Source: Allomuricauda sp. NBRC 101325
GTDB taxonomy: Bacteria; Bacteroidota; Bacteroidia; Flavobacteriales; Flavobacteriaceae
DNA: 64,000 nt
Reading direction: 5' to 3'
Assembly: GCF_030268205.1 (NCBI RefSeq)
Contig: NZ_BSQF01000001.1
Span: 478,649 to 542,648, forward strand
Shown here: positions 3,675-26,789 of the stretch, piece by piece
Position numbering within the stretch: the first letter of the stretch is position 1
Layout: the number at the start of each line of letters is the position of its first letter
Position numbers and translations under genes: made by a program
The notes under the pieces: model-generated
Told to the model about the DNA's origin: nothing
The model's database searches: none
What the model saw: only the letters and a program-made list of their open reading frames with translations

Positions 3675-3717
3675 CAAAATTATAAGCACCGTGCCTTCTA
3701 AAACATGATAGACGTCA
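3675..3717 (-). promoter_or_regulatory. Crp/Fnr-type site and -7 box before usp-DASS-pckA
   Basis: Dyad TGATAGACGTCA at 3706-3717. Read on the minus strand, a perfect Bacteroidota -7 box TAATTTTG (3682-3675) begins 35 nt after the first base of the dyad, putting the dyad centre near -41.5 of the expected start point. The site points to the usp operon; I see no matching -7 box at that spacing towards the ROK gene on the plus strand. Confidence 0.7.
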
Positions 3718-3835
3718 GGTTTATAACTTTACCTTGATATTAGCAAAAATTCAAGCCTTAGAAAAGCTTCCTAAGTTATTTTTTTGAAACCATTATGGTT
3801 ATATTTAAAAACCCTAAAATAACAGTAGATTTTAT

Positions 3836-4798
3836 ATGGATTTAGTAATTGGAGTAGATATTGGTGGCACCAAAACCAAAATAGGATTAGTAGACAAAAC
3901 AGGACATTGCCACGAAAAAACATTTTTTAGAACACGGGAATACCCTAATCTGAATGAATATCTAGACAAAATTAAATCCACGGCCGACGAACTCATTGAA
4001 CAATTGGGGCAAGAGGTCAACATTATTGGATGTGGCATCGGAGCCCCGAATGCATCCAGTAAAAATGGCACAATCGAAAGAGCCAGCAATCTGGTTTGGA
4101 AGGGAACCGTGCCCTTGGTGGAAAAATTAAAGGAACGGATGGATATGCCCATCCGCATTATGAACGATGCCAGTGCCGCCGCATTGGGAGAAATGTTGTT
4201 CGGTGCAGCTAAAAATATGACCGATTTTATCGTAATCACCCTAGGCACCGGATTTGGAGCTGGAATCGTGGCCAATGGAAGGTTGATTGATGGCTATGAT
4301 GGTTTTGCAGGTGAATTGGGACATGTAGACATGACCATTGGCGACGGACGACTAACCGGTTTAGGGGTTCGCGGTGGCTTGGAAGCCTATGTTTCGGCCA
4401 CAGGATTGAAACGTACCATCTTGTTTATGCAAAGTAAATATTTGGTGGAAAGCAGGTTCAGGGATATCGCTTATAATGATCTTCATGGGGAGGATATTAC
4501 CCAAGCTGCTGAAGAAGGCGATGAAATCGCTTTAAAAGCTTTCGACTATACGGCACGAATCATGGCATTGGCCTTGGCCAATTTTACCGCATTTACCCAA
4601 CCCGAAGCTTTTATTCTTATGGGTGGACTTACGAATAGTGGCAAATGGATCATGGATCCGTTGGAAAAGTATTTTAATGGTTTTCTGCTGGATGTTTACA
4701 AAGGAAAAGTAAAAATAATCCATTCGGGAATGCACGGTAAGGATGCCGCTATTTGTGGCGCTGCTGCACTCATTTGGGAACATCAGAAAAAAGTGTAA
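3836..4798 (+). CDS. ROK-family sugar kinase (glucokinase-like) lacking the zinc cysteines
   Basis: A 320-residue cytosolic kinase, probably phosphorylating glucose or a related hexose. The phosphate-1 motif DIGGTKTKIGLVD is at the N-terminus, the catalytic-base region IMNDASAAALGE is near residue 105, and LGTGFGAGIV is the phosphate-2 loop. The ROK signature that normally reads CxCGxxGCLE is TGLGVRGGLE here, so all three zinc-binding cysteines are missing although the rest of the helix (LEAYVSATG) is kept. The upstream GHVDM keeps the motif histidine. Monocistronic, divergent from the usp operon. Substrate assignment is by family only. Confidence 0.88.
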   Translation: MDLVIGVDIGGTKTKIGLVDKTGHCHEKTFFRTREYPNLNEYLDKIKSTADELIEQLGQEVNIIGCGIGAPNASSKNGTIERASNLVWKGTVPLVEKLKERMDMPIRIMNDASAAALGEMLFGAAKNMTDFIVITLGTGFGAGIVANGRLIDGYDGFAGELGHVDMTIGDGRLTGLGVRGGLEAYVSATGLKRTILFMQSKYLVESRFRDIAYNDLHGEDITQAAEEGDEIALKAFDYTARIMALALANFTAFTQPEAFILMGGLTNSGKWIMDPLEKYFNGFLLDVYKGKVKIIHSGMHGKDAAICGAAALIWEHQKKV

Positions 4799-4820
4799 AA
4801 CAGTACTTTTTCAAGGTCTA

Positions 4821-4864
4821 TGACAACCGTCATACTATACGGTTGATTTTATAAGAAAACTTTG
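4821..4864 (+). promoter_or_regulatory. Crp/Fnr-type site and -7 box before the DUF2490 gene
   Basis: Dyad TGACAACCGTCA at 4821-4832, followed by AAACTTTG (4857-4864, one mismatch to TAnnTTTG) 36 nt from the dyad start. The start codon is at 4893. Confidence 0.6.
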
Positions 4865-4892
4865 TACTCCAGCAATCCCAAAATAGTAGATT

Positions 4893-5606
4893 ATGGAGTT
4901 TGCAAAGTATGGCCCTAGATTACTTTGTTGCCTGTTTCTCACAATTTCCTCCCTCACTCCCCTTCATGCCCAAAATTCAACAGAAAACGAATATGGCTCT
5001 TGGTGGATGTTCTGTGGCACTACCAAAATTCATGAAGCATGGGGTATTCCTACAGTGGGCATTCTTCGCTATCACGATTTAATGGACAAATATGCCTTCG
5101 GTTTTGTGAGCACCGGGGTTTCTTATAAAGTTAGTTCGGCCAGTTCCGTTGAGGGCGGGGTTGCTTTTTTAAACTCGACCACTTACTCTGACTTATACGA
5201 TTCAAAGAATTCAACCCAATTTTGGTTATATGGTTCCTATACTTTAAAATCCAATTTTAAAAAGGACCTCATCCTTCAACGTTTTAGATTGGAAAATCGA
5301 AGGTTGATCACTCATGAAGACCCAAAGACAAACAATAGGTTCCGCTACCGCTTGCAATATTCGACACCCATATCCGAAAACCTTTATTTTAAGACCTATA
5401 ACGAACTATTCCTCAATTTGAATGGGGATGTTTTTAACCAAAACCGATTGTTTGTTGGAATAGGTCAAAAGCTCAACGACCACTTAAAAGTTGAATCAGG
5501 ATACTTTAACCGAAAATTCTCTGACAGACAGGAGCATATGATCTTATTTGGAATGGTTTTTGACATAATTACTTATAGAGAAGATTTAGCACTTCTATCA
5601 AATTGA
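4893..5606 (+). CDS. DUF2490-type outer-membrane beta-barrel protein
   Basis: A 237-residue protein with a clear signal peptide (positive start, LLCCLFLTISSLTPLHA, cleavage after HAQ). The mature part has alternating aromatic beta strands and family features such as RFRYRLQYSTP and an N-terminal GSWWMF, matching DUF2490, a family of predicted outer-membrane barrels of unknown role. It starts 61 bp after a Crp/Fnr-type dyad, so it is probably expressed with the oxygen-limitation genes around it. No catalytic residues are recognisable. Confidence 0.8.
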   Translation: MEFAKYGPRLLCCLFLTISSLTPLHAQNSTENEYGSWWMFCGTTKIHEAWGIPTVGILRYHDLMDKYAFGFVSTGVSYKVSSASSVEGGVAFLNSTTYSDLYDSKNSTQFWLYGSYTLKSNFKKDLILQRFRLENRRLITHEDPKTNNRFRYRLQYSTPISENLYFKTYNELFLNLNGDVFNQNRLFVGIGQKLNDHLKVESGYFNRKFSDRQEHMILFGMVFDIITYREDLALLSN

Positions 5607-5651
5607 CGTATTTATTTTATGAATTTGATAATTCAATGGGTAATTCAAACC

Positions 5652-5694
5652 TGATTTTTATCATATTTTTTAAAATTGTTGACATCTACCTTTA
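5652..5694 (+). promoter_or_regulatory. Crp/Fnr-type site and -7 box before the TonB gene
   Basis: Dyad TGATTTTTATCA at 5652-5663 with TACCTTTA at 5687-5694, exactly 35 nt from dyad start to -7 box. The start codon is at 5717. Confidence 0.65.
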
Positions 5695-5716
5695 TCATAT
5701 ATAAATACAAGAAGTC

Positions 5717-6457
5717 ATGAAACCTAAAAAGAACCCAAACGCCGAAATAGGACGCAATAGCAGTTTGTATTTCATGATAGGCCTTACTTCCGTATTGTTT
5801 GTTACATGGCAATCCTTGGAAGTAAAGTTCTATGAGAAGGATACCAAAGTTTCAGAAGTTGTACAATTGACCGATGATCTTAAGGAAGAAGTTCCCATCA
5901 CTGAAATGTTAAGAACTCCTCCACCTCCACCTCCACCATCTGCCCCAGAGGTAATTGAAATTGTGGAAGATGTGGAAGAAGTGGAAGAAACCATCATCCA
6001 AAGTACAGAGAGTAGCCAAGAAACCTTTATTGAGGATGCCATTGTTTCCATTGATGATGTGGTAGTTGAAGAGGTTGAGGAAAACATCGTGGTGCCATTT
6101 GCAGTTATCGAAAATGTACCCGTTTTCCCAGGTTGTGAATCCTTGACAAGTCAAGCAGAACGCAAGGATTGCTTTAACCAAAAAGTGCAAGAGCATATTA
6201 AAAACAACTTTAAGTATCCCCCAACTGCTTTGGAAATGCACATTACCGGTCGGGTTTATGTCCAATTTGTGATCGATAACCAAGGACGGGTAACTGGAAT
6301 TCAAAAAAGAGGCCCCGACAAACTTTTGGAAACTGAAGCCGAACGCATCATTGCTTCCTTACCTAAAGTAAAACCTGGGGAACAAAGAGGTAAAACCGTA
6401 AGTGTAAAATACAGCATCCCCATTAACTTTATAATGGACAACAATAAAGATGATTGA
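5717..6457 (+). CDS. TonB-family energy transducer
   Basis: A 246-residue periplasm-spanning protein. One N-terminal membrane segment (about 17-35), a run of seven prolines (PPPPPPP) near 75, an acidic linker (VEDVEEVEET), and a TonB C-terminal domain (about 130-240) with NVPVFPGCE, HITGRVYVQFVIDNQG and a final YSIPINF strand. It would transmit proton-motive-force energy from ExbB/ExbD to outer-membrane receptors; no exbB or exbD lies next to it. The C-terminal domain, including the conserved Cys pair (PGCE and KDCF), closely resembles the two copies in the M56 protein at 45703-47661. It has its own Crp/Fnr-type promoter and a terminator at 6480. Confidence 0.92.
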   Translation: MKPKKNPNAEIGRNSSLYFMIGLTSVLFVTWQSLEVKFYEKDTKVSEVVQLTDDLKEEVPITEMLRTPPPPPPPSAPEVIEIVEDVEEVEETIIQSTESSQETFIEDAIVSIDDVVVEEVEENIVVPFAVIENVPVFPGCESLTSQAERKDCFNQKVQEHIKNNFKYPPTALEMHITGRVYVQFVIDNQGRVTGIQKRGPDKLLETEAERIIASLPKVKPGEQRGKTVSVKYSIPINFIMDNNKDD

Positions 6458-6479
6458 TTTTAGATTTTAAATAGCATGG

Positions 6480-6506
6480 GCCCAAGTGAAAGCTTGGGCT
6501 TTTTTT
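6480..6506 (+). terminator. Rho-independent terminator after the TonB gene
   Basis: GCCCAAG (6480-6486), six-base loop, CTTGGGC (6493-6499), then seven T. It lies between convergent genes, 23 bp after the TonB stop codon. Confidence 0.85.
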
Positions 6507-6510
6507 ATGG

Positions 6511-7701
6511 TTAAAACCAAGATGCTCCCATATAATCTTTGGATTTAGAAGCTCGTTCTCTACTTTTTATGCGTAAGTGGGTCTTGTCAGATTGTCTTGC
6601 CCTATACCCCAACAAGTGGAAGAGTTTTTTGGCAAAAAATCGGGCAATCCTTAAATCTACCACCAAGGTGTCCTTGGCCTTGGAATCCCATTTTATCCCC
6701 GGCAGAATAGCCAACAAATAATCCACTTTAAACTGCCGTAGTTGTTTGGACAACCATAACAAAAACCTCGGAACAGGCCGCACAAAATAAAACCCTTCGT
6801 TTCCTTGTTTTTGATATAAGGGCATAAAAATCTGACGTTGGTGTTTGGTCTTCAAAATAGTTTTGTTCTCCAATGCCAACTCCGTTCCTTTGGGTACTAT
6901 TTGAAAATTGACAAAGCCCGGTTTCATCTCAAAACAATAACCAGGAGCTATTAAATGCTGATGGTATATTTCATAAAATCTATGGGAGGTGGAACTTGCT
7001 CTAAAAATGGCTTCATAATGTAGTTTTTTTGCTTTTTCATCCACTGGAATGGATGCTGTGATCATCAGGGAATACCAAATAAAATCGATGCAGGTTTCCA
7101 CTGCTTTTGCATCTTCGTGTTGCCCGCTTTCAAAACCCAAGGATACATAACCCAATTCATTGATATAACTCAAAAGGGCACCGTGCAAATATTCTTCAAT
7201 CCCTAAAATAATGGGCAATGGGTAATTGGAGGCGTACTTTCGATTCAAAAGACTATCATTCAACACCATAAATGGAGTAGTGTCACTCGAAGTGGTATGC
7301 AGATCTAGAAAATAAAACGGAGGCGTACCTTTTTCCAAAATCTCACTGATCATTTGAAACAGCCCTTTGAGCTCCTGCTCTTCGGGATGCTCCAAAACAT
7401 CTTCCTTTAATATCTTTTGAATTCTGTCGGGAAACCAAATACGATTAAAGTCTTCTTGCTGGAACCGCATTTTATGCTCCAATGCACCAAGATTTCCGGA
7501 AAGCGCATAAATGTTTCCAAAAATGGGTATTTTCTTTTCTCTTATTTCTTCAAAAACTTGCTCAGATGCCAAAACACCCGCTGGTTCGTTCCCATGAATG
7601 CCACCAAAAAATACCACGGTGGGCCCATTTTTTTCACCTTGTAAATGATCAATGACCCTCCTAACCTTCATTCCTTCCACATTCGCTACTTGTTGCATCA
7701 T
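6511..7701 (-). CDS. Succinylglutamate desuccinylase/aspartoacylase-family zinc hydrolase
   Basis: A protein of about 396 residues of the AstE/AspA branch of M14-like zinc enzymes, which hydrolyse N-acyl amino acids. The first zinc motif is seen in FGGIHGNEPAG (H and E ligands, near residue 37) and the second ligand in YFLDLHTTSSDTTPF. The C-terminal 100 residues go beyond the usual catalytic core and are basic. Start: ATG at 7701; a GTG at 7707 directly abuts the upstream stop codon and is the alternative. The stop of the ligase-like gene (7708) and this start are 6 bp apart, so the two are co-transcribed and probably act on the same small molecule, one forming and one cleaving an amide bond (inference). 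Confidence 0.88.
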   Translation of the reverse strand: MMQQVANVEGMKVRRVIDHLQGEKNGPTVVFFGGIHGNEPAGVLASEQVFEEIREKKIPIFGNIYALSGNLGALEHKMRFQQEDFNRIWFPDRIQKILKEDVLEHPEEQELKGLFQMISEILEKGTPPFYFLDLHTTSSDTTPFMVLNDSLLNRKYASNYPLPIILGIEEYLHGALLSYINELGYVSLGFESGQHEDAKAVETCIDFIWYSLMITASIPVDEKAKKLHYEAIFRASSTSHRFYEIYHQHLIAPGYCFEMKPGFVNFQIVPKGTELALENKTILKTKHQRQIFMPLYQKQGNEGFYFVRPVPRFLLWLSKQLRQFKVDYLLAILPGIKWDSKAKDTLVVDLRIARFFAKKLFHLLGYRARQSDKTHLRIKSRERASKSKDYMGASWF

Positions 7702-7707
7702 CGACAC

Positions 7708-9552
7708 TTATAAATCCACTTTGCTCACGATGCCTACCACATGGGCATCTACCAATACAGGCAAACATCCAATTTGATGTTCCTGCATTATTTTTTTCGC
7801 AGTTTTAATCTCCGTTTTGGGTTCAACGGTAAATACATCCTTGATCATAATATCCGAAACTCTTGCTCCATTTTGGCTCATGGAACCCAATCGTTCAATA
7901 TGTGTCCAAGTTAAAAGCCCAACCAATTCTCCATCTCCATTTTCAACGGGTAAATGATGGATGTTGTTCCATTTCATAATGGCAATGGCGAGATTGGCAT
8001 AGTCGTCCTCGTAAAGTTTCATGAGTTTGGTGGACATAATCTGGCCCACCCATTTGAATCTCTCGGTTGTTTCGGCCATATTTCCGACCGCTTTCCATTG
8101 GTGCACTGGTTGATCTGTTTCTTGGTTTTTGCTCATGGCCTTGGTGAGTTGCACAATAGCGCTGTCCAACTTCATTTGCTTGCGGAGACTCCTAAAGTTT
8201 TTGATTTGCCATTCTGCCCCTGTTCCTTTTTTGGTGCGCTTTGCAATTATGCCAAGTAAACGTTCGATGTCCTGCTCGTCCACCCCATATTTTCTTAACC
8301 CATCAAAGGCAATGGGCAAAAGTTCTTCCAGCACCATTTTCTTGGCCGTAATGACTTTATCTTTCCAAGTGAACATGGCGTTCCTTCCATTTGTAGCTGC
8401 CCTTAAAAAGTTCAATTTGGCTTCTTTAAAGTCCATTTGAGAGGGCATATCATCAAATCTTTCAGGTCTGCCGGCCATTAACCCAACCCAAAATGCAAAA
8501 TTGGCCATCTCATCAATCACTGTTGGACCCGAAGGAATGTATCTATTTTCAATTCGAAGATGCGGTTTGCCATTCCCAACACCATAGCAAGGTCGATTCC
8601 AACGGTACACAGTACTATTGAATAAACTTAAGGCTTCCAACTTAGGTACTTCGCCCCGATCTAATAATTCCAGGGCATTTTGCTCAATGGGTTTGGTCAA
8701 TAAAATTCTGTGGGTAGAAATATCTTGTTTGAATATTTCCGCAACCGAATGTTTTTGCCAGCGCTCCCCAAAACCAACCCGGGCCACCTGTTCTTTGACT
8801 GCTTTGGTCCATTTGCGGGTATCCAAACTTTGTTGAAAAAGGGCGATTCGGGTTTCGCTCCATAATTCCCTTCCCAAAAGTAGGGGTGAATTGGTGCAGA
8901 TACTCAAAACAGGACCTGATATGGCCTGTGCCCAATTGTAACTTTTAATAAAGTCGTTTGGATGAATTTGTAAATGCAATTGAAAACTGGTGTTACAAGC
9001 CTCGAACAAAACCGAATCGTGGTGTAGTGAAAGTTCATCCACTCCTTTGATCCTGACGGAAAAATCATCTCCCCTCCATTTTCTCAACACATCGTTAATA
9101 CGGTAATACCTTGGGATAGGGGTCATAAAATCCATCCCCAATTCATCTTTGCTGATGGAAGGCAATATGCCTGTTAAAATAATTTTGGCATCAAATGCTT
9201 TGGAGGAGTGCTGCACTTTTTTCAATAATCCCCTTAATTGTTCCTCCATCCCCGTAAAGCAAGCCGACTCCAAGGTCATGGGGTCTAGATTGGCCTCCAC
9301 ATTGTATTTGGCAAATTCTGTAGTAAAATGATAATCATCCAACGCCTTCAATACATCCATGGAAATTGGTGCGGGCCTATAATCGGAATTGACCAAGCAC
9401 ATTTCTTGTTCGGCACCGATTCGGATAATATCATCTTCAATCATCCCACATTGAATCATTCGCTCCAAGGCTCGAATATCATCAATAAGATGTTGCACAA
9501 AAGCTTTTCGCTCCTGCTCATCAAATGCACTGGAAGCTATATGTTCTCCCAT
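7708..9552 (-). CDS. Glutamate-cysteine ligase-like (GCS2/YbdK-type) protein with C-terminal CBS pair
   Basis: A 614-residue cytosolic protein. Residues about 20-480 match the carboxylate-amine ligase fold of the GCS2 family: RIGAEQEMCLVN near the N-terminus is the ATP/Glu-binding GAE motif, and LRIENRYIPSGPT lies near residue 330. Residues about 495-614 form two CBS motifs (HHLPVENGDGELVGLLTW and IGCLPVLVDAHVVGIVSK), which sense adenylates in many enzymes. Usual YbdK proteins have about 370 residues, so this is a long regulated form. It is first in a two-gene operon with the AspA-like hydrolase and starts 64 bp after a Crp/Fnr-type dyad. The product is unknown; classical gamma-glutamylcysteine synthesis cannot be claimed. 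Confidence 0.85.
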   Translation of the reverse strand: MGEHIASSAFDEQERKAFVQHLIDDIRALERMIQCGMIEDDIIRIGAEQEMCLVNSDYRPAPISMDVLKALDDYHFTTEFAKYNVEANLDPMTLESACFTGMEEQLRGLLKKVQHSSKAFDAKIILTGILPSISKDELGMDFMTPIPRYYRINDVLRKWRGDDFSVRIKGVDELSLHHDSVLFEACNTSFQLHLQIHPNDFIKSYNWAQAISGPVLSICTNSPLLLGRELWSETRIALFQQSLDTRKWTKAVKEQVARVGFGERWQKHSVAEIFKQDISTHRILLTKPIEQNALELLDRGEVPKLEALSLFNSTVYRWNRPCYGVGNGKPHLRIENRYIPSGPTVIDEMANFAFWVGLMAGRPERFDDMPSQMDFKEAKLNFLRAATNGRNAMFTWKDKVITAKKMVLEELLPIAFDGLRKYGVDEQDIERLLGIIAKRTKKGTGAEWQIKNFRSLRKQMKLDSAIVQLTKAMSKNQETDQPVHQWKAVGNMAETTERFKWVGQIMSTKLMKLYEDDYANLAIAIMKWNNIHHLPVENGDGELVGLLTWTHIERLGSMSQNGARVSDIMIKDVFTVEPKTEIKTAKKIMQEHQIGCLPVLVDAHVVGIVSKVDL

Positions 9553-9584
9553 GGGATATTGATTTAATCCGTTATATCAACTCT

Positions 9585-9627
9585 TAAATGTACAATGAAC
9601 CTAGGGCCGAAAAAATGACGATTATCA
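9585..9627 (-). promoter_or_regulatory. Crp/Fnr-type site and -7 box before the ligase/hydrolase operon
   Basis: Dyad TGACGATTATCA at 9616-9627. On the minus strand TACATTTA (9592-9585) begins exactly 35 nt from the dyad start. It lies 40 bp from the hemN site, so each divergent operon has its own box. Confidence 0.65.
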
Positions 9628-9655
9628 TTTATCAAACCCAACTAGGGGTCAATCC

Positions 9656-9698
9656 TGACAATTGTCATATTTTTTGAGAACATGCAAAAGTACCTTTG
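9656..9698 (+). promoter_or_regulatory. Crp/Fnr-type site and -7 box before hemN-usp
   Basis: A perfect palindrome TGACAATTGTCA at 9656-9667 followed by a perfect -7 box TACCTTTG at 9691-9698, 35 nt from the dyad start. The best-formed copy in the window. The hemN start is at 9724. Confidence 0.75.
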
Positions 9699-9723
9699 AC
9701 CTATAATGTAATGGTATGCAGCT

Positions 9724-11082
9724 ATGTGTGATTTAACCCAAAAATACAATGTCCCAGGTCCCCGCTATACGAGCTACCCTACTGTACCGTATTGGGAATT
9801 GGATAGTTTCTCTGGAAAACAATGGAAATCCAGTGTGCTGAAAACTTTTCAGGAAGACCCGAAGGAAGGAATCAGTATATACATCCACCTACCTTTTTGC
9901 GAAAATATGTGCACCTTTTGCGGTTGCCATAAACGTATCACTAAAAGACATGAGGTGGAAAGACCTTATATCAATGCCGTGTTGAAAGAATGGGAGCTGT
10001 ATTGCAACCTTTTGGACACTAGACCCTTGATCAAAGAACTTCATTTGGGAGGTGGAACCCCTACTTTCTTTTCTCCTGAAAATTTAAAAATTCTTATTGA
10101 AGGTATTCTTAGATCGGGAAAGGTGGCCGAAACCCATGATTTTAGTTTTGAAGGACATCCGAACAATACCACCAAAGCCCATTTACAAACGTTGTTCGAT
10201 GTTGGTTTTAGAAAAGTTTCCTTCGGAGTTCAAGACTACAACTTAACTGTGCAACGGGCCATCAACAGAATTCAGCCTTTTGAAAATGTGAAGAATGTGA
10301 CCGAATGGGCCCGAGAAATTGGGTACACTTCGGTAGGACACGATATAATTTATGGCTTGCCATTTCAAGATTGTGCCAATGTTGAAGAGACCTTGATCAA
10401 AACCAAAGCCATTCAACCTGACCGTATTGCCTTTTACAGCTACGCTCATGTGCCTTGGCTGAAAGGGAACGGACAACGTGGGTACAAGGATTCCGACCTT
10501 CCATCTTCTGTGGTTAAAAAGGCCCAGTATGAAATGGGAAAAAGAATGCTCACCGAGTTTGGCTATAAAGATGTAGGTATGGACCATTTTGCCTTGCCTA
10601 CGGACAATTTGTACAAAGCACTTGTACAAGGAACTTTGCACAGGAATTTTATGGGCTACACACCTTATAAAACCAACCTGATGATAGGTTTGGGAGCATC
10701 CAGCATCAGTGATAGCTGGTATGGATTTGCCCAAAACGTTAAAAATGTGGAAGAGTATGAAAATTTGGTTTCCCAAGGGGTTATTCCTATTTTTAGGGGA
10801 CATATTCTCAACTTGGAAGATCAAATCGTAAGAAAGCATATCCTCGACATCATGTGTCAATTTGAAACCACATGGACCAGCGAGGAAGAGCAAGAAGTTG
10901 ACTTTTCCAGCATATTGGACAACCTCTCTGAACTGGAAGCGGATGGATTGGTGGAAACCACCTCAAATTCCATAAAAGTGACCGAGAAAGGAAGACCTTT
11001 TGTTAGAAACATCAGCATGGCCTTTGATCTTAAATTACATCGTAAAAAACCAGATACCCGAATTTTTTCCATGACCGTTTAA
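9724..11082 (+). CDS. hemN: Oxygen-independent coproporphyrinogen III oxidase
   Basis: A 452-residue radical-SAM enzyme that decarboxylates coproporphyrinogen III to protoporphyrinogen IX without O2, supplying heme in low oxygen. The N-terminal HemN signature PGPRYTSYPTVPYW is present. The FeS/SAM motif CENMCTFCGC has the CxxxCxxCxC spacing that separates true HemN from HemW, and GGGTPTFFSPENL follows. Length is normal. It is followed after 17 bp by a usp gene and has the strongest Crp/Fnr-type promoter of the window, fitting its role in supplying heme to the cbb3 oxidase encoded nearby. Confidence 0.96.
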   Translation: MCDLTQKYNVPGPRYTSYPTVPYWELDSFSGKQWKSSVLKTFQEDPKEGISIYIHLPFCENMCTFCGCHKRITKRHEVERPYINAVLKEWELYCNLLDTRPLIKELHLGGGTPTFFSPENLKILIEGILRSGKVAETHDFSFEGHPNNTTKAHLQTLFDVGFRKVSFGVQDYNLTVQRAINRIQPFENVKNVTEWAREIGYTSVGHDIIYGLPFQDCANVEETLIKTKAIQPDRIAFYSYAHVPWLKGNGQRGYKDSDLPSSVVKKAQYEMGKRMLTEFGYKDVGMDHFALPTDNLYKALVQGTLHRNFMGYTPYKTNLMIGLGASSISDSWYGFAQNVKNVEEYENLVSQGVIPIFRGHILNLEDQIVRKHILDIMCQFETTWTSEEEQEVDFSSILDNLSELEADGLVETTSNSIKVTEKGRPFVRNISMAFDLKLHRKKPDTRIFSMTV

Positions 11083-17180: not shown

Positions 17181-19364
17181 TTAGTCTTCAGCTTGAACAA
17201 TTTTGATATCGGTACCCAATCGCTGTAAGTAAGCAATCAAGGAAACAATTTCTCTGTCGCGCATTTCCACAAAGTTTTGGCCGTTTTCTGCGGCGAACTT
17301 TTTATCTGCTTCGTAGGTTCTTTCGAACTCGGGGTCGGAATACAAATTCTTCTCGATTTGCTCGGCCTGTGCCGCCATGGACGCTGGTGCATTGGCTATG
17401 TCTTCTTCGGTATAAGGAACTCCCAATTTTACCATGGCCTCCATTTTCGCCTGCACATCACTTCTATCGTGCTCACTGGTCACCAACCACTCATAGGATG
17501 GCATAATGGAACCTGCGGATGTACTTTGTGGATCGTACATGTGGTTCAAGTGCCAGTTGTCGGAATATTTGCCTCCCACACGTAAAAGGTCTGGCCCAGT
17601 ACGTTTACTACCCCATAAGAATGGGTGGTCGTAAACAAACTCCCCTGCTTTGGCATATTCGCCATAGCGTTCCACCTCACTACGGAATGGACGTATCATT
17701 TGGGAGTGACAACTCACACAACCTTCTCGAATGTACAGATCACGACCTTCCAATTCCAATGGTGTATATGGTTTTACACTGGTAATGGTAGGTATGTTGG
17801 ATTTCACCAAAATAGTAGGAACAATCTGGATAACACCTCCAATTAGAATCGCGATGGTGGCCAAAATGGTCAACTGAACTGGTTTTCTTTCCAACCAGTT
17901 GTGGAAGGTTTCGCCAGCCACTCTTCTTTTGGATACCCTGGCCAATGCGGGTGCTTCGGCCAATTCGTCTTCAACTTTGCTACCGGATTTGATGGTTTTT
18001 ACAATGTTGTACAGTAATACGAACATACCCAAGATGTACAAGCTACCTCCAATGGCTCTCATCCAGTACATCGGGATGATTTGGGATACAGTTTCCAAGA
18101 AGTTACCGTACACCAAAGTTCCATCTGGGTTAAATTCTTTCCACATCAACGCTTGGGTAAACCCGGCCACGTACATCGGCAATGCATAAAGTACAATACC
18201 CAATGTACCTATCCAGAAGTGGAAGTTGGCCAATCCTTTGGAATACAATTCGGTTTTGAACATTCTTGGCACCAACCAATAGATCATACCAAACGTCATG
18301 AACCCGTTCCAAGCCAAAGCTCCTACGTGAACGTGGGCTATGATCCAGTCACTAAAGTGCGCAATGGCATTTACGTTTTTCAAGGAAAGCATTGGACCTT
18401 CAAAAGTGGCCATACCGTAACCTGTGATGGCTACCACCATAAATTTAAGTGTGGCATCGCTACGCACCTTGTCCCAAACACCACGAAGGGTCAACAAACC
18501 ATTGATCATACCACCCCAAGATGGCGCAATCAACATAATGGAGAAAACCACTCCCAGGTTCTGTGCCCAGTCTGGCAATGCAGAATACAACAAATGGTGA
18601 GGTCCTGCCCAGATATAGATGAAAATCAACGACCAGAAATGGACAATGGACAATCTATAGGAATAAATTGGACGGTTGGCCGCTTTTGGCACAAAGTAGT
18701 ACATCAACCCCAAGAACGGAGTGGTCAAGAAGAATGCCACCGCATTGTGACCGTACCACCATTGCACCAAGGCATCTTGCACCCCTGCGTACACAGAATA
18801 ACTTTTTAGCGCGGTAACTGGAAGCTCCAAGCTGTTAAAAATGTGCAGTACCGCAACGGTCACAAATGTTGCCAAATAGAACCAAATGGCCACATAGAGG
18901 TGTCGTTGTCTTCTTTTTAAAATGGTACCGATCATGTTCCAACCAAAAACGACCCAAACGGCTGCAATGGCCAAATCGATAGGCCATTCCAATTCGGCAT
19001 ATTCTTTAGATGTTGTGTATCCCAACGGCAAGGTCAACGCTGCGGCCACAATGATCAATTGCCAACCCCAGAAGTTGATGTTGCTCAGGACATCACTGAA
19101 CATTCTCGCTTTTAACAAGCGTTGCAGCGAGTAATACACCCCTGCAAAAATGGCGTTACCCACAAAGGCAAAGATCACGGCATTGGTATGCAACGGACGC
19201 AAACGCCCAAAACTCAACCATGAAATACCCTCGGTTAAATTGGGAAACAGAAACATAAAGGCCAACAATAGCCCTACTGCCATACCCACTACGCCCCAAA
19301 GTATGGTGGCGTATAAGAACTTTTGCACGATTTTGTTATCGTAGCGAAACTGTTGTATTTCCAT
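17181..19364 (-). CDS. ccoNO: cbb3 oxidase fused subunits I and II (CcoN-CcoO)
   Basis: A 727-residue fusion. Residues about 1-480 are the CcoN heme-copper subunit with twelve or so helices and the heme/CuB histidines (RPLHTNAV, WWYGHNAVAFF, GPHHLLYS, AHVHVGALAWNG). Residues about 505-727 are CcoO: one anchor helix, then the c-heme motif EGCVSCHSQMIRPF and GPDLLRVGGKYSDNWH. The fusion is common in Bacteroidota, whereas proteobacteria encode the parts separately. It reduces O2 to water with high affinity while pumping protons. It starts 2 bp after ccoS. Confidence 0.97.
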   Translation of the reverse strand: MEIQQFRYDNKIVQKFLYATILWGVVGMAVGLLLAFMFLFPNLTEGISWLSFGRLRPLHTNAVIFAFVGNAIFAGVYYSLQRLLKARMFSDVLSNINFWGWQLIIVAAALTLPLGYTTSKEYAELEWPIDLAIAAVWVVFGWNMIGTILKRRQRHLYVAIWFYLATFVTVAVLHIFNSLELPVTALKSYSVYAGVQDALVQWWYGHNAVAFFLTTPFLGLMYYFVPKAANRPIYSYRLSIVHFWSLIFIYIWAGPHHLLYSALPDWAQNLGVVFSIMLIAPSWGGMINGLLTLRGVWDKVRSDATLKFMVVAITGYGMATFEGPMLSLKNVNAIAHFSDWIIAHVHVGALAWNGFMTFGMIYWLVPRMFKTELYSKGLANFHFWIGTLGIVLYALPMYVAGFTQALMWKEFNPDGTLVYGNFLETVSQIIPMYWMRAIGGSLYILGMFVLLYNIVKTIKSGSKVEDELAEAPALARVSKRRVAGETFHNWLERKPVQLTILATIAILIGGVIQIVPTILVKSNIPTITSVKPYTPLELEGRDLYIREGCVSCHSQMIRPFRSEVERYGEYAKAGEFVYDHPFLWGSKRTGPDLLRVGGKYSDNWHLNHMYDPQSTSAGSIMPSYEWLVTSEHDRSDVQAKMEAMVKLGVPYTEEDIANAPASMAAQAEQIEKNLYSDPEFERTYEADKKFAAENGQNFVEMRDREIVSLIAYLQRLGTDIKIVQAED

Positions 19365-19366: not shown

Positions 19367-19576
19367 TTATTGGTTTGTACTTTTAGTTTGTTTGATTTTA
19401 TCTGTATTTGAATTAGATACATTTTTGTCGGTTACCACCTCATCTTCAAATAGCATTCGAACCGATGGTGTATAGGTATCATCGTACTGTCCGCTTTTTA
19501 CCGAAAAAACAAAGGCTAAAAAAAAGACGATAGCCACAGTTATGCTTATGGCCAGCAACACATAAATTACACTCAT
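19367..19576 (-). CDS. ccoS: cbb3 oxidase assembly protein CcoS
   Basis: A 69-residue protein with an N-terminal helix (VIYVLLAISITVAIVFFLAF) followed by SVKSGQYDDTYTPSVRML, the typical CcoS sequence around the DD motif. It is needed for cofactor insertion into the oxidase. It is the first gene of the operon, 51 bp after a Crp/Fnr-type dyad. Confidence 0.93.
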   Translation of the reverse strand: MSVIYVLLAISITVAIVFFLAFVFSVKSGQYDDTYTPSVRMLFEDEVVTDKNVSNSNTDKIKQTKSTNQ

Positions 19577-19595
19577 ACCTTTTGTAATTTGGGGT

Positions 19596-19638
19596 TAAAA
19601 CTACTGTGATGATATCCTTCAAAAAATGACATATATCA
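19596..19638 (-). promoter_or_regulatory. Crp/Fnr-type site and -7 box before the cbb3 operon
   Basis: Dyad TGACATATATCA at 19627-19638. On the minus strand TAGTTTTA (19603-19596) begins exactly 35 nt from the dyad start. It lies between the ccoI stop and the ccoS start. Confidence 0.7.
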
Positions 19639-19645
19639 GCTTTAT

Positions 19646-22021: not shown

Positions 22022-22042
22022 TTACATTTGCTTTACCTGACG

Positions 22043-22116
22043 CAAAATTGTAATAGTCTTACCCTTAAAAATATGATATTTATCAGTAAATTGTAGTCCG
22101 TTAAACATTAATTTTG
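22043..22116. promoter_or_regulatory. Shared Crp/Fnr-type site for divergent ccoI and the regulator gene
   Basis: One dyad, TGATATTTATCA (22074-22085), has a -7 box at 35 nt in both directions: TAATTTTG (22109-22116) on the plus strand towards the regulator, and CAATTTTG (22050-22043) on the minus strand towards ccoI. The plus-strand start point would be near 22121, downstream of an ATG at 22114, which decides that the regulator starts at 22141. Suggests autoregulation. Confidence 0.7.
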
Positions 22117-22140
22117 TTTAATCAGGTAAACACTACAGTT

Positions 22141-22830
22141 ATGGAAAGCAGATGTGAAAATTGTATCATCAGACAATTTAATTCGCTCCGCGCGATGAGC
22201 AAGGAGGAATTGAAACAAGTTTCTGACTCCAAGACTGTCAAGACCATTAAAAAAGGAGAGCCTCTTTTTCAGGAAGGCGACAAGCTAAATGGGGTTTACT
22301 GTGTTCGAAACGGTGTTTCCAAACTTTCCAAACTAAGCTCCAACGGTAAGGACCAGATTGTAAAATTGGCCAGTAAAGGCGAGGTTTTGGGGCAACGCTC
22401 CGTAATTTCTGAGGAATGCACCAATCTTTCCGCCATCGCTGTTGACGATATGGAGGTTTGTTTTATTCCCAAGGAAAGCATCAACAATACACTACAAAAG
22501 AATCCCAACTTTACCATGGAGGTGCTCCGTCACATGGCACACGACCTTAAAGAGGCCGATGATGTTATCGTGAACATTTCCCAGAAAACGGTAAAACAAC
22601 GTATGGCCGAAGCCTTCCTATACCTTAAAAACAATTTTGGTGAGGACGAAGATGGGTATTTGGCACTTACACTTTCACGCGAAGACATTTCCAATGTAGT
22701 TGGAACCGCTACTGAATCCGCCATCCGAATTATTTCCGAATTCAAGAAAAAAGGCCTCATAGTGGCCTCTGGGAAAAAGATTGGGATTAAGGATGAACGC
22801 AAACTTCTGGAGTTGGTAGAAGGGTTTTAA
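22141..22830 (+). CDS. Crp/Fnr-family transcriptional regulator
   Basis: A 229-residue DNA-binding protein: a cyclic-nucleotide-type beta-roll domain (about 20-125), a long dimer helix (about 125-155) and a winged helix-turn-helix (about 165-225). The recognition helix GTATESAIRIISEF aligns with the Fnr helix and keeps the Glu and Arg that read TGA/TCA half sites, matching the dyads around it. Cysteines at 5, 8, 54, 93 and 107 include an N-terminal CENC pair, but this is not the classical Fnr spacing, so an FeS sensor is possible and not proven. Start 22141 was chosen because 22114 lies upstream of the predicted transcript start. The best candidate for the regulator of the nine dyads. Confidence 0.93.
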   Translation: MESRCENCIIRQFNSLRAMSKEELKQVSDSKTVKTIKKGEPLFQEGDKLNGVYCVRNGVSKLSKLSSNGKDQIVKLASKGEVLGQRSVISEECTNLSAIAVDDMEVCFIPKESINNTLQKNPNFTMEVLRHMAHDLKEADDVIVNISQKTVKQRMAEAFLYLKNNFGEDEDGYLALTLSREDISNVVGTATESAIRIISEFKKKGLIVASGKKIGIKDERKLLELVEGF

Positions 22831-22839
22831 TCCCTAAAC

Positions 22840-22882
22840 TGACATTTGTCATAGTATTCCCTGTTTTACACCTTTAATTTTA
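22840..22882 (+). promoter_or_regulatory. Crp/Fnr-type site and -7 box before usp (22904)
   Basis: Dyad TGACATTTGTCA at 22840-22851, ten bases after the regulator stop codon, with TAATTTTA at 22875-22882, exactly 35 nt from the dyad start. Confidence 0.7.
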
Positions 22883-22903
22883 TCGCATCTTAACCTTAAT
22901 AAG

Positions 22904-23815
22904 ATGCAGAAGATATTAATACCCACGGATTTTTCGGAAAACGCATGGAACGCGATTGACTACGCTATGCAGTTGTTCCGCAACAAACGTTGTACTTTTT
23001 ATCTACTCAATACCTACACCCCTGTTATTCCCAGTAGTCGCTTTATGGCTAAAATGATAGATGGAGTAAGTATTGTTGATGCGGTAAGGGAAACATCGGA
23101 AAGAGGTTTGCAAAAGACCGTACAAAGGATAAAAGTAAAATACGGCAATCCCAACCATCGCTTTGAAACGATTTCTTCCTTTAACCTTTTGGTTGAAGAA
23201 GTGAAAGATGTGGTGGAAACCTTTGGGATAAATATGGTAATAACGGGAACCAAAGGTGCATCTGGTGTGGATGAGGTCTTTATGGGCAGCAATACCGTGC
23301 GCATTATCAAAACTACCAAAAAGTGTCCAATTTTGGCGATTCCCTATCATTTTGAATATGTAACTCCCACTGAAATAGCTTTTGCTACTGATTTTAATAG
23401 ATTTTATACCACTTCGGAACTTGAGCCATTGTTGCAAATGGCAAAAATGTTCAATGCTACCGTTCGCATAGTTCATGTGCAATACGGAATCAAGGCCCTA
23501 ACGGAACTGCAGCAATTCAACCTTAATATGTTGCGCAGGTATCTCGGAGATGTGGAACACTATGTTCATACCGTTTCAGAATTGAGTTCTGTTTCGCATA
23601 CCCTGGAGACCTTTTCCAAAGAATTGGGCATCCATTTATTGGCCATGTTGAACTATCAGCATAGCTATATGGAAAAAATGACCCGTGAGCCCATTATCAA
23701 ACGGACGGCTTTTCATACCCAAATACCTTTATTGGTGATACCTGAATTGGGCATGGAGGGGGTAGCCGCTACCGAAAAGGAAGAGGAACCTAGTAGTATT
23801 GAGGCACACAATTAA
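22904..23815 (+). CDS. Universal stress protein, tandem UspA domains
   Basis: A 303-residue Usp with two domains. Domain 1 starts KILIPTDFSENAWNAIDY and keeps the ATP-binding signature GTKGASGVDEVFMGS. Domain 2 begins near residue 155 (EIAFATDFNRFY) and lacks that signature. A short acidic tail follows. Third Usp of the window, again behind a Crp/Fnr-type box. Confidence 0.92.
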   Translation: MQKILIPTDFSENAWNAIDYAMQLFRNKRCTFYLLNTYTPVIPSSRFMAKMIDGVSIVDAVRETSERGLQKTVQRIKVKYGNPNHRFETISSFNLLVEEVKDVVETFGINMVITGTKGASGVDEVFMGSNTVRIIKTTKKCPILAIPYHFEYVTPTEIAFATDFNRFYTTSELEPLLQMAKMFNATVRIVHVQYGIKALTELQQFNLNMLRRYLGDVEHYVHTVSELSSVSHTLETFSKELGIHLLAMLNYQHSYMEKMTREPIIKRTAFHTQIPLLVIPELGMEGVAATEKEEEPSSIEAHN

Positions 23816-23829
23816 AGTTCTGTGGTTAT

Positions 23830-23875
23830 CTTTATGCGGGGTTTTTACCCTACCAACTAACAACCCCGCATAAAG
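23830..23875 (+). promoter_or_regulatory. Strong stem-loop just before the threonine dehydratase start codon
   Basis: Perfect 14-bp arms, CTTTATGCGGGGTT (23830-23843) and AACCCCGCATAAAG (23862-23875), with an 18-nt loop, ending 6 nt before the ATG at 23882. No T-tract follows, so it may act in the 5' leader of the next gene or protect the 3' end of usp mRNA. Confidence 0.6.
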
Positions 23876-23881
23876 TTATCT

Positions 23882-24817
23882 ATGGACAAACAACTTCTTA
23901 TCGATTGCCACGAACGAATCAAACCCTTTGTTCACAATACACCTGTTCTAACTTCAAGCCAAATCAACACAATTGTTGGGGCTGAATTGTATTTTAAATG
24001 CGAGAATTTTCAAAAAATGGGCGCTTTTAAAATGCGTGGTGCCGCCAATGCCATTTTACAACTTTCCCAAGCACAAAAAGAAAATGGGGTGGTTACGCAT
24101 TCTTCTGGGAATTTTGCCCAAGCATTATCGTTAGCAGCCAAAAACCTGGGAGTCAAGGCATATATTGTAATGCCCAATTCCGCACCTCAAGTAAAAAAAG
24201 ATGCGGTAAGGGGTTATGGTGGTATTGTTTTGGAATGCGAACCCACCTTAGAAGCCCGTGAACGAGAATCGAAACGTATTCAAGATGAATATGGTGCCAC
24301 CTTTATCCATCCCTCCAACGATGATCAAGTTATTATAGGTCAAGGAACTGCCTGTATGGAATTCTTGAAATCACATCCAGACTTAAATTATGTGACAACA
24401 CCGGTTGGTGGAGGCGGATTGATTGCCGGAACTGCCTTGGCAGCCCATTATTTTGGAAAAGATTGTAAGGTTATTGGGGGCGAACCATTGGAAGTGGATG
24501 ATGCCTACCGCTCCATGATTAGTGGAAAAATTGAGACCAACTCTTCCATTAATACCATCGCCGATGGATTAAAGACGCAGTTGGGTGACCGAAATTTTCC
24601 AATCATATTAAAATATGTGGATGAAATTATTCGCGTTTCCGAAGAAGAAATTGTTGCTGCAATGCGACTGATTTGGGAGCGATTGAAAATTGTTTGCGAA
24701 CCTTCCAGTGCCGTGGCCTTGGCTGCCATTATCCGAGATAAAGAAAAATTCAAGGATAAAAAAGTGGGGGTTATTATTTCGGGAGGCAATGTGGACTTAT
24801 CCAACTTGCCCTTTTAA
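23882..24817 (+). CDS. PLP-dependent threonine/serine dehydratase-like enzyme
   Basis: A 311-residue fold-type II PLP enzyme, deaminating threonine or serine to 2-oxo acids or acting as a serine racemase. The PLP lysine is K50 in GAFKMRGAAN. The substrate-binding loop SSGNFAQAL and the phosphate-binding loop PVGGGGLIAG are intact. There is no C-terminal ACT domain, so it is the short catabolic-type form without isoleucine feedback control. The stop codon overlaps the terminator at 24808 and the convergent kinase gene. Confidence 0.9.
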   Translation: MDKQLLIDCHERIKPFVHNTPVLTSSQINTIVGAELYFKCENFQKMGAFKMRGAANAILQLSQAQKENGVVTHSSGNFAQALSLAAKNLGVKAYIVMPNSAPQVKKDAVRGYGGIVLECEPTLEARERESKRIQDEYGATFIHPSNDDQVIIGQGTACMEFLKSHPDLNYVTTPVGGGGLIAGTALAAHYFGKDCKVIGGEPLEVDDAYRSMISGKIETNSSINTIADGLKTQLGDRNFPIILKYVDEIIRVSEEEIVAAMRLIWERLKIVCEPSSAVALAAIIRDKEKFKDKKVGVIISGGNVDLSNLPF

Positions 24818-24829
24818 AGGGCTTTTTTT
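24808..24829 (+). terminator. Terminator overlapping the dehydratase stop codon
   Basis: GCCCTTTTAAAGGGC followed by seven T. The hairpin spans the TAA of the dehydratase (24815-24817) and the stop codon of the convergent histidine kinase gene. Confidence 0.8.
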
Positions 24830-26274
24830 GTGAAATACACGCTAAAAGTGGTTCCAATCCCAAATTCGCTATTCACTTCAATTTTCCCGTTCATGGCCTC
24901 AATCTGGTTTTTTACCAAATAGAGCCCCAGTCCTTTACCTTCTGTATTGCCGCTGAGCCTACCATACATATCGAATATTTTACGTTGACGCTCAGGGGTC
25001 AACTCTATTCCAATTCCGTTGTCCGAAACCTTGAGCACAACATACTCGAGGGTATCTTCAGTAATTATTTCAATATTTAGCTTCTCCTCCTCTTTTCGAT
25101 ACTTAATGGCATTCTGTACCAAATTGTACAAAATATTGGAAACATAACTCTTGGCCCCAAAAATGGTTTCAGCAGCAGAAAAATTAGTTCGAACAGTAGT
25201 TTTGGTCTTATTAATTTCCTCAGCCAACAACGTATCCACCTCCTTCATTACCTCATTTAAGTCCACATCTCTAAAACGATCCTTATCCCCAGATTTTAGG
25301 GAAAGGGACAGGTTTAAATCTTTTATGGTCTGATCGAGGGCCTCAGTAGTTTGTTCAATCTTCTGTACAATGTCATCGTTCATCTCATTATGCCCCCAAT
25401 CATAAATTTTGGAAAGCATTAAAAGATTGGCAATGGGCCCCCTTAGATTGTGGGAGATAATTCGAACAAAATTCTGAAGCTCATGGTTCTGTTCGATTAT
25501 TTTATGATTGTAGGCAATATCTTTGGTAACGTCCTGAGTTGTCCCGGACATTTGGTAAGGTTTCCCATTTTCATCATAAAAAACACTTCCCTTTTGATGC
25601 ACATATCTTGTCTCTCCATCATTTACGATAATTCGGTGTACAATATCGTGCAATGCATTGTTGGCGATACTATTTTCCACATCCTCTTTAAACGCTTCCC
25701 TATCTTCAGGATGAAGAATTGCCATTAAACTTTCGAAGGTAGCTTCGAACTTTCCTGGAATCTGACCAAAAATTCGATACAGTTGATCGGACCAAGTAAT
25801 TTCGTTTTTTACCATATCCCAGTTCCAGTGACCCACATTGGCCACTTTTTGGGCCTCACGATACTTGGTTTCGCTATCCTTTATTCTTTTAATATTGTAG
25901 ACTTCCTCGGTAATGTCCTTTTGCCAAATACAACAACCGATAACAATTCCCGATTCATCCATGTAGGGTTGAAATGAGAATTCATGGACCAAGGTTTCAC
26001 CATTTTGTTCCAATGTATGGTTTGAAGTGGTTGCATACCTATTTAATGCGCGTTCACACCCATTTTTACATGAGCTAAAAAACACCCCCTTTTCATAGAT
26101 AGGCCTAAGGTCCATTCCCTTTTCGGGAATACCCAAATTCTCATTTTGAAACTTTTGTTCAAAGGATTGATTGAAAGCTGTGAGACGGTAATTGACATCC
26201 ATGGCCCAAACTACGTCGTCCCGGTTTTCTACAACCTCTACTTTATTATGAATAAGTATTTGATTTTTCTTCAC
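24814..26274 (-). CDS. PAS-domain sensor histidine kinase
   Basis: A 486-residue kinase without transmembrane helices. Two PAS regions lie at about 15-125 and 140-245. The phospho-acceptor is in IISHNLRGPIANLL (near residue 280), the N-box in NLVQNAIKYR, and the G-boxes in VSDNGIGIE and GKGLGLYLVK. Being cytosolic, it probably senses an internal signal. It follows the response regulator gene after 71 bp on the same strand and may share its Crp/Fnr-type promoter. Confidence 0.93.
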   Translation of the reverse strand: MKKNQILIHNKVEVVENRDDVVWAMDVNYRLTAFNQSFEQKFQNENLGIPEKGMDLRPIYEKGVFFSSCKNGCERALNRYATTSNHTLEQNGETLVHEFSFQPYMDESGIVIGCCIWQKDITEEVYNIKRIKDSETKYREAQKVANVGHWNWDMVKNEITWSDQLYRIFGQIPGKFEATFESLMAILHPEDREAFKEDVENSIANNALHDIVHRIIVNDGETRYVHQKGSVFYDENGKPYQMSGTTQDVTKDIAYNHKIIEQNHELQNFVRIISHNLRGPIANLLMLSKIYDWGHNEMNDDIVQKIEQTTEALDQTIKDLNLSLSLKSGDKDRFRDVDLNEVMKEVDTLLAEEINKTKTTVRTNFSAAETIFGAKSYVSNILYNLVQNAIKYRKEEEKLNIEIITEDTLEYVVLKVSDNGIGIELTPERQRKIFDMYGRLSGNTEGKGLGLYLVKNQIEAMNGKIEVNSEFGIGTTFSVYFTKKAL

Positions 26275-26345
26275 TTATAAAGTTTTGAGGCAAAGTAAAG
26301 CACCATCAACTAAAATCCCCGTATTTACAAAAGATGAAAACAGGG

Positions 26346-26732
26346 TCAAATGGTTTTTTGCAAGTAGTCTTCCAAATGCTCTATGCGCAATGGCTTGGTA
26401 ATAAATTCCTTTACGTATTTACTGTATTTCTCTGCTTCTTCCTTATCCGCATCAGATTCTGAGGAAGTTACCAATAACACTTCATTGGTTTCGGGAAAAT
26501 CTTCCAGCATCATAAATTCCAAAAATTCAAATCCACTCATTTCTGGCATATTGATATCTAGAAGAATTAAAGTCTTTTGATTTGGATTGTCCCTATAACG
26601 TAGGTCATCCAAGGCCAATTCGGGGTTTGTAAAGGTCTTAACCCTATCTTCCATACCCATTCGTCTAAAATGGATAACGTTTATGGTGTTTACAAGGTCT
26701 TCGTCATCTACCAAATAAATTTCCTTATACAT
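26346..26732 (-). CDS. Single-domain response regulator (CheY-like)
   Basis: A 128-residue receiver domain without an output domain: acidic pair DD at 9-10, phospho-acceptor D59 in LLDINMPEMSG, Thr in LLVTSSES, Lys in FITKPL. Such stand-alone receivers act by protein contact or in phosphorelays. It is upstream of the PAS kinase gene on the same strand and 46 bp after a Crp/Fnr-type dyad. Confidence 0.94.
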   Translation of the reverse strand: MYKEIYLVDDEDLVNTINVIHFRRMGMEDRVKTFTNPELALDDLRYRDNPNQKTLILLDINMPEMSGFEFLEFMMLEDFPETNEVLLVTSSESDADKEEAEKYSKYVKEFITKPLRIEHLEDYLQKTI

Positions 26733-26745
26733 AAATTCTGGCTAT

Positions 26746-26789
26746 AAAAAATAGTTAGTCTTGGTTATTTAAAATATTGACAAATATCA
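26746..26789 (-). promoter_or_regulatory. Crp/Fnr-type site and -7 box before the response regulator/kinase pair
   Basis: Extended dyad TTGACAAATATCAA (core TGACAAATATCA at 26778-26789). On the minus strand TATTTTTT (26753-26746) lies 36 nt from the dyad start; the final G of the -7 box is not kept. Confidence 0.55.

Follow-up and report, generated by a model that had tools for sequence, protein, structure and literature searches.

FNR-like sites phased to the -7 promoter box in Allomuricauda: a predicted low-oxygen regulon of a Crp/Fnr regulator with an altered cysteine set

The 64,000 nucleotides (nt) of Allomuricauda sp. NBRC 101325 analysed here (contig NZ_BSQF01000001.1, positions 478,649 to 542,648; hereafter, the window) hold the gene of an FNR-like regulator of the Crp/Fnr superfamily and, distributed around it, nine dyads with a TGA-N6-TCA core, which make up ten promoters because the dyad at 22074 serves both fnr on the forward strand and ccoI on the reverse one. 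At most of these promoters a box of the form TAnnTTT[AG] begins exactly 35 nt from the dyad start (+35 in what follows). The genes placed in this way are a usp-DASS-pckA-pfk run (whose pckA and 6-phosphofructokinase genes lie past the window edge), a DUF2490 gene, a tonB-like gene, a pair encoding a CBS-domain protein and an AstE-like hydrolase, hemN-usp, the cbb3 oxidase genes ccoS-ccoNO (the first of which we take to be ccoS from its position and sequence), ccoI, fnr itself, a usp followed by the gene of a PALP enzyme, and a response regulator with a PAS kinase. The features are as follows.

22141..22830, + strand: FNR-like Crp/Fnr regulator gene (fnr), 229 aa, Pfam cNMP_binding and HTH_Crp_2
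3706..3717, - strand: dyad TGACGTCTATCA, promoter of the usp-DASS-pckA-pfk gene run
3675..3682, - strand: -7 box TAATTTTG, at +35 from the 3706 dyad
4821..4832, + strand: dyad TGACAACCGTCA, 5' of the DUF2490 gene
4857-4864, + strand: AAACTTTG, the box closest to the 4821 dyad (DUF2490), at +36, with position and sequence both off
5652..5663, + strand: dyad TGATTTTTATCA, 5' of the tonB-like gene
5687..5694, + strand: -7 box TACCTTTA of the tonB-like gene, at +35
9616..9627, - strand: dyad TGATAATCGTCA, 5' of the CBS-domain protein/AstE-like hydrolase pair
9585..9592, - strand: -7 box TACATTTA of that pair, at +35
9656..9667, + strand: dyad TGACAATTGTCA, 5' of hemN-usp
9691..9698, + strand: -7 box TACCTTTG of hemN-usp, at +35
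19627..19638, - strand: dyad TGATATATGTCA, 5' of the ccoS-ccoNO (cbb3 oxidase) genes
19596..19603, - strand: -7 box TAGTTTTA of ccoS-ccoNO, at +35
22074..22085, both strands: dyad TGATATTTATCA, common to the divergent fnr (+) and ccoI (-) promoters
22109..22116, + strand: -7 box TAATTTTG of fnr, at +35
22043..22050, - strand: -7 box CAATTTTG of ccoI, at +35 from the 22074 dyad read on its other face
22840..22851, + strand: dyad TGACATTTGTCA, 5' of usp
22875..22882, + strand: -7 box TAATTTTA of usp, at +35
26778..26789, - strand: dyad TGATATTTGTCA, 5' of the response regulator/histidine kinase pair
26746-26753, - strand: TATTTTTT, the box closest to the 26778 dyad, at +36, with position and sequence both off

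All nine dyads are present where the first-pass annotation of this DNA had placed them, five of them as exact copies of TGAYANNTRTCA (9656, 19627, 22074, 22840 and 26778) and four with one mismatch to it (3706, 4821, 5652 and 9616), and a recount again returned seven promoters in ten with an exact TAnnTTT[AG] box at +35 (3706-, 5652+, 9616-, 9656+, 19627-, 22074+ and 22840+). The other three had been described as one base off, which is right for ccoI (CAATTTTG at +35), but not for DUF2490 and the response regulator, both of which deviate in position and in sequence. The dyads are indeed promoter-proximal, although the distance to the start codon, given before as 46-66 bp, amounts to 45-65 nt in nine promoters (and to 50 nt, counted by eye, for ccoS), with predicted leaders of 10-30 nt in nine promoters. 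None of the other one-mismatch dyads of the window (43856, 51929 and 60687) is accompanied on either strand by a box at offsets 20-59, and an Rfam search of positions 3000-28000 gave no structured-RNA match at the gathering score.

It is the register and the promoter position that make the window dyads significant, and not their number, which was rejected as evidence since it is barely above chance (12 matches with one mismatch allowed, for 7.8 expected, a count that 11 of 100 shuffles reach). A box at +35 accompanies 7 of the 60 TGAN6TCA occurrences on both strands of the window, versus a mean of 0.055 and a maximum of one phased site in 200 simulated first-order Markov windows. The genome-wide scan set beforehand as a test (TGAYN4RTCA-N{8,38}-TAnnTTTR over the 3.69-Mb genome) pointed the same way: 18 of the 35 dyad-box pairs have a spacer of 23 nt, while the other 30 spacings share the remaining 17 (0.57 apiece); the excess is 32-fold (binomial P 4e-18), in counts that are approximate, since the shortest spacer was sometimes reported for a given start. 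The reversed pattern gave eight matches over all spacings and none at spacer 23. Eight of the 18 phased sites, seven inside the window and one 2 kb before it, fall within 25 kb of contig 1 around the regulator (binomial P 1.8e-13), so the sites are clustered; yet the remaining ten lie elsewhere in the genome, and the idea of a “local” regulon, as first proposed, turned out to be too narrow and was abandoned. Half of the exact TGAYANNTRTCA sites of the genome (9/18) are outside any spacer-23 or spacer-24 pair, and the spacer-24 sites (OEP efflux gene, cytidylate kinase) were treated as possible chance occurrences.

The same register is found around the regulator's orthologues. In the best 80 of the 109 fnr-orthologue loci found (1.5 Mb in total), 237 boxes stand at +35, one at +34 and none at +36, the next peaks being 40 boxes at +12 and 14 at +29, and four control dyads gave zero boxes at +35; phased sites accompany fnr in every one of these loci. 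On the scale of whole genomes, where spacer 23 was measured against all spacings from 8 to 38 and the P values ignore kinship, the register is equally sharp in the genus (276/505 at spacer 23 in 12 genomes, 36-fold) and weaker through the family (250/800 in 15 genomes, 14-fold) and the class (106/505 in 21 other genomes, 8-fold). Within the order, the excess is 7-fold in two genomes of the phylum sample (22/112) and 5.6-fold in seven further genomes of the relatives sample (32/202), with none in G017 and G020, and in 119 other genomes of the phylum it falls to 1.6-fold (72/1398), the 19 genomes of family f28 giving 0.6-fold. The reversed pattern is less rare in some genomes, as in G040, with seven real and four reversed matches at spacer 23.

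At the level of individual promoters, a dyad is found within 160 nt upstream of fnr in 74 of the 80 loci, with the exact box at +35 in 71 of them; upstream of usp in 75 of 80, phased in 74 of the 75; and upstream of ccoS in 69 of the 71 loci that reach this gene, with the box at +35 in all 69. Spacer positions 18-34 are only 36-44% identical pairwise and the spacer length is constant; the identity of 1.00 in the dyad halves and the box reflects the way the set was selected and carries no evidential weight. On the ccoI side,.AnnTTTG stands at +35 in the 75 sequences with a dyad (the window and 74 loci), with C (67), G (five) or A (three) but never T at position -12, which turns the “one base off” of this promoter into a conserved feature, perhaps one that keeps it activator-dependent. 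That these elements are conserved at four promoters (fnr, usp, ccoS and ccoI) supports a function for them. As a separate observation, TCAGGTAAA occurs at 22122-22130 (+) and at 22032-22040 (-), just 3' of the predicted fnr and ccoI starts, and CAGG[TC]A is found in the leaders there in 67 of 75 cases for fnr, 29 of 75 for ccoI, 41 of 69 for ccoS and 0 of 70 for usp.

The position of the box can be converted into promoter coordinates from Flavobacterium psychrophilum, where the sigma-A box TAnnTTTG lies at -12 to -5 from mapped starts according to the portion of PMC9723704 available. With the T of the box at -12, the dyad is centred at -41.5 and the start falls at dyad index 47; in agreement with what is expected of a start site, C is favoured at index 46 (-1; 0.57) and A at index 47 (+1; 0.54) among 223 distinct conserved sequences. 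The position -41.5 is that of class II sites of CRP and FNR in Escherichia coli, and the dyad, spanning -47 to -36, covers the upstream part of the promoter, so that by its geometry this is a class II arrangement, with overlap of the upstream element. This span agrees with the claim that the dyad replaces the -33 element, but the T-rich positions at about -32 (13/18 sites) and -30 (16/18) leave room for a residual upstream element. The central proposal, namely that a Crp/Fnr activator occupies the class II position with respect to the -7 promoter of Bacteroidota, is supported at the sequence level by the excess of phased pairs and by a register kept in spite of spacer drift.

The product of 22141-22830 is the likely regulator acting on these dyads. 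Its Pfam scores place it in the Crp/Fnr superfamily (PF00027, 1.5e-19; PF13545, 3.7e-14), it is the stronger of the two HTH_Crp_2 proteins found in the genome, and its gene, itself preceded by one of the sites, lies where they cluster. The AlphaFold model (pLDDT 92) has as best solved fold in Foldseek the Porphyromonas gingivalis Crp 2gau (TM 0.87), with the holo-FNR of Aliivibrio fischeri 9qmc at rank 5 (TM 0.82), and the 50 listed matches are all of the Crp/Fnr family by title; the closest named relative is a protein from Allomuricauda zhangzhouensis (98% identity). It is nonetheless FNR-like and not FNR proper, as indicated by the curated score (113.4 bits for the best NCBIfam model, Fnr, NF008365, below the cut-off of 228), by an incomplete cysteine set and by a recognition helix that reads E--IR instead of E--SR. 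A residue-by-residue comparison with E. coli FNR shows C20, C23 and C122 (here C5, C8 and C107), as well as E209 and R213 (E192 and R196), matched in all 99 relatives compared (80 close, 19 distant), and the isoleucine of E--IR is equally invariant. The FNR-proper site TTGAT-N4-ATCAA is not reproduced either: the TGA-N6-TCA core is kept, but none of the 18 phased sites of the genome has a T just before TGA, and 16 have one just after TCA. Ser212 of E. coli FNR contacts the site, and its replacement here may be linked to the changed outer base.

The set of cysteines differs as well. A Cys equivalent to C29 appears in none of the 99 relatives (N in 80/80 close ones; S, N or T in 19/19 distant ones), and C54, at the position of E. 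coli A70, is Cys in all of them (80/80 and 19/19), from which a swapped iron-sulphur ligand becomes possible; the assignment of C54 to that role is tentative, with the odds somewhat against it. In the AlphaFold model, strand 51-57 carries C54 and strand 104-110 carries C107; from the topology we take these two strands to be neighbours in the beta-roll. A survey of 139 Crp/Fnr rows included 106 with the CxxC and C107, which are related to one another and have the query and A. fischeri FNR among them, and here C54 is present in 37 of the 38 rows lacking a third N-terminal cysteine versus 53 of the 68 having one (Fisher P 0.009); L199 and L209 contain the same three proteins, and with the repeats removed the figures are 37/38 and 50/65 (P 0.005). 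The only row with neither a third cysteine nor C54 (L230) has an extra cysteine farther upstream, and among rows without CxxC at these columns C54 occurs in one of 33 (L221). The presence of C54 thus goes with that of the N-terminal cysteines, and rows without the third almost always have it; a strict either/or between them was rejected, since 53 of 68 rows have both. Other Bacteroidota Crp/Fnr proteins (L150-L153, L160 and L149, L155, L157, L162) carry an N-terminal C-x4-CxxC or CxxC-x4-C, with the C107 equivalent present and C54 absent. In its accessible text, a 2026 structural review names two types of FNR cluster, held in Gram-negatives by a loop with three cysteines near the N-terminus and in Gram-positives by a site at the C-terminus, and that text covers the P. 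gingivalis Crp without any word starting with “bacteroid” (PMC12937710).

By gene content, the regulon looks like a low-oxygen, low-energy programme. To the window targets, phased sites elsewhere in the genome add a FadL-type porin, an S30AE ribosome-hibernation factor, a thioredoxin, Usps in two places, a biotin carboxyl carrier/carboxylase pair, OmpW, a GH3 enzyme, a cytochrome c, PPDK and a DoxX/GFO-IDH pair; GH3 and GFO-IDH have no obvious place in such a programme. In F. psychrophilum, oxygen limitation strongly induces the cbb3 oxidase and haem synthesis, as far as the available portion of PMC9723704 goes. As for the genes themselves, CcoN and CcoO are fused in one 727-aa protein (window 17181-19364; COX1 11-441, FixO 488-720), and a usp gene follows fnr (22141-23815) as uspE follows fnr in E. 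coli. At 6511-9552, under a phased dyad, a 614-aa protein in which Pfam finds CBS domains only is encoded with the AstE/AspA-like hydrolase, and the name “ligase” previously given to the former could not be confirmed.

These data have to be weighed against other explanations. That the pattern is a product of chance or of a repeat in an A+T-rich genome would agree with a dyad count barely exceeding expectation, but the simulated windows and the lack of a peak at other spacings or with control dyads refute it, and its probability is negligible. The dyads might instead be mainly repressor operators, or activate elsewhere, with the register reflecting no more than their overlap with a strong promoter; members of the Crp/Fnr family are known to repress from sites that overlap promoters, but a base-exact spacing over many promoters, agreeing exactly with -41.5, makes this highly improbable. 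Equally hard to sustain is the possibility that the dyads are bound by the second Crp/Fnr protein (a 216-aa frame at C1:695729), which would have the 22141 product as one target among others: it has the cNMP_binding and HTH_Crp_2 domains and a spacer-24 dyad about 5 kb away, but its recognition helix has no glutamate at the E192 position, its N-terminus has no cysteines, and eight of the 18 phased sites cluster around fnr and not around C1:695729, besides which phased sites travel with the fnr orthologues. An alternative that accepts the regulator concerns the signal, in the sense that the cysteines could serve as zinc ligands, make up a redox disulphide, or respond to nitric oxide or to the redox state in general. 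The replacement of the FNR ligand C29 speaks for it, as does FixK2, whose oxygen sensing needs no cluster according to the accessible text of PMC12937710; nevertheless, four cysteines are invariant, three of them aligned with FNR ligands, and the target genes resemble a low-oxygen set, so we regard this other form of sensing as unlikely.

Several observations also weigh against the proposal that the dyads are operators of the 22141 product. The protein has three of the four canonical FNR cysteines and no C29 equivalent, three of the ten window promoters are without an exact box at +35, and no dyad was found before usp in five of the 80 loci. No TGAN6TCA is present within 160 nt upstream of fnr in six (L035, L064, L071, L072, L075 and L076), where the dyad shared with ccoI is lost, moved or unrecognised; the claim that the regulator controls itself, backed by the phased dyad at its own promoter, is therefore not universal. 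The loci of relatives are close kin, and hence their sites are not independent, and the phased dyad was chosen where there were several, as in 46 of the 71 ccoS stretches, which held two or three. Furthermore, same-family genomes without a close fnr orthologue have phased sites as well: eight in G072 (best regulator match, E 7.5e-23), 16 in G107 (1.9e-38) and ten in G149 (5.6e-19), from which the register is probably a property of several Crp-type activators working with the Bacteroidota sigma-A polymerase. Finally, sister genomes carry a Crp protein fused to a response regulator near its own phased sites:

L176:7969-9111 (sister genome G005): response-regulator/Crp fusion, beside a PAS histidine kinase and Usps
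L177:7015-8145 (sister genome G011): response-regulator/Crp fusion, beside a PAS histidine kinase and Usps

With a second Crp-type protein near phased sites, no single site can be assumed to belong to FNR, and several factors could act on some of the 18 sites of the genome studied here; a domain search of this genome found no such fusion. The dyads linked to the fusion have another core (e.g., TGACCTAAGTCA), and the L176 neighbourhood additionally holds a P-type ATPase and a ribonucleotide reductase.

Taken as a whole, we consider it likely that the dyads are operators of the FNR-like class II activator encoded at 22141 and that they drive a low-oxygen regulon. The sites with their register and conservation, the gene content and the cysteine pattern are read from the sequence itself, whereas activation is what we infer, as are oxygen as the signal and binding by this protein, these two from the kinds of gene involved, the dyad at the regulator's own promoter, the recognition helix and the conservation of the cysteines. 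The FNR-like dimer would bind [AC]TGAY-N4-RTCAT centred at -41.5, adjoining the sigma-A box TAnnTTT[AG] (T at -12), and would recruit the RNA polymerase as a class II activator, probably at low oxygen, with its N-terminal iron-sulphur cluster intact. It would activate its own gene, plus ccoI from the other face of the same dyad, and would drive the cbb3 genes, hemN, Usps, pckA, PPDK, OmpW, the cytochrome c and the ribosome-hibernation factor. A broader and less secure proposal, to which we give rather less than an even chance, joins a third mode of holding the FNR cluster in Bacteroidota to the changed outer base of the site and to an either/or switch between fnr and ccoI. C5, C8 and C107 would here be completed by C54, tying the cluster directly to the face of the beta-roll; and as one dyad would serve two back-to-back class II promoters in most relatives, both of which could not hold the polymerase simultaneously, the shared site would be a conserved either/or switch.

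As for its relation to known systems, the regulator shares with the FNR of E. coli and A. fischeri the Crp/Fnr fold, the CxxC and C122 equivalents and those of E209 and R213, and its sites share with FNR class II promoters the TGA-N6-TCA core and the centre at -41.5. E. coli FNR also has ompW and respiratory genes among its targets, as does the regulon described here. Unlike it, the Allomuricauda protein has no C29, an invariant Cys at the A70 position and Ile for Ser212; and unlike the E. coli sites, with their half-site TTGAT, those found here have no T before TGA and TAnnTTTG in place of TATAAT. In Proteobacteria, the FixK, FnrN and ANR systems likewise put cco genes and hemN under a Crp/Fnr regulator, although in another phylum, with another promoter and without one dyad facing fnr and ccoI. 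P. gingivalis belongs to the same phylum as Allomuricauda, and its Crp homologue (2gau) gives the top solved fold, but the alignment starts at query residue 30, with no counterpart of the N-terminal CxxC; that homologue is effector-independent, as stated in the accessible text of PMC12937710. The closest parallel on the promoter side is F. psychrophilum, with the same box at the same distance from the start and its cbb3 and haem genes induced by oxygen limitation; in the available portion of PMC9723704, “crp” and “fnr” do not occur and no analysis of activator sites was seen. A Flavobacteriales homologue has been placed in a MalR-like group (PMC8510549, available portion). Among the papers listed in the literature search there was no Bacteroidota FNR regulon, no FNR with this cysteine set and no study of TAnnTTTG with class II activation, which is weak evidence of absence, as most subscription journals were outside its coverage. 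The kind of system is known, and this is a new form of it by virtue of the way the dyads fit the promoter, the single dyad that serves fnr and ccoI, and the changes in the site and in the cysteines.

To our knowledge, promoter control in Bacteroidota is poorly mapped, and how activators fit the unusual -33/-7 promoters of this phylum is largely open; the spacing described here suggests an answer. Being kept to the base across many promoters and several genera, it would amount to a rule for predicting regulons from sequence, and the cysteine pattern predicts that a class of oxygen sensors studied as thoroughly as almost any other has a further type of cluster site.

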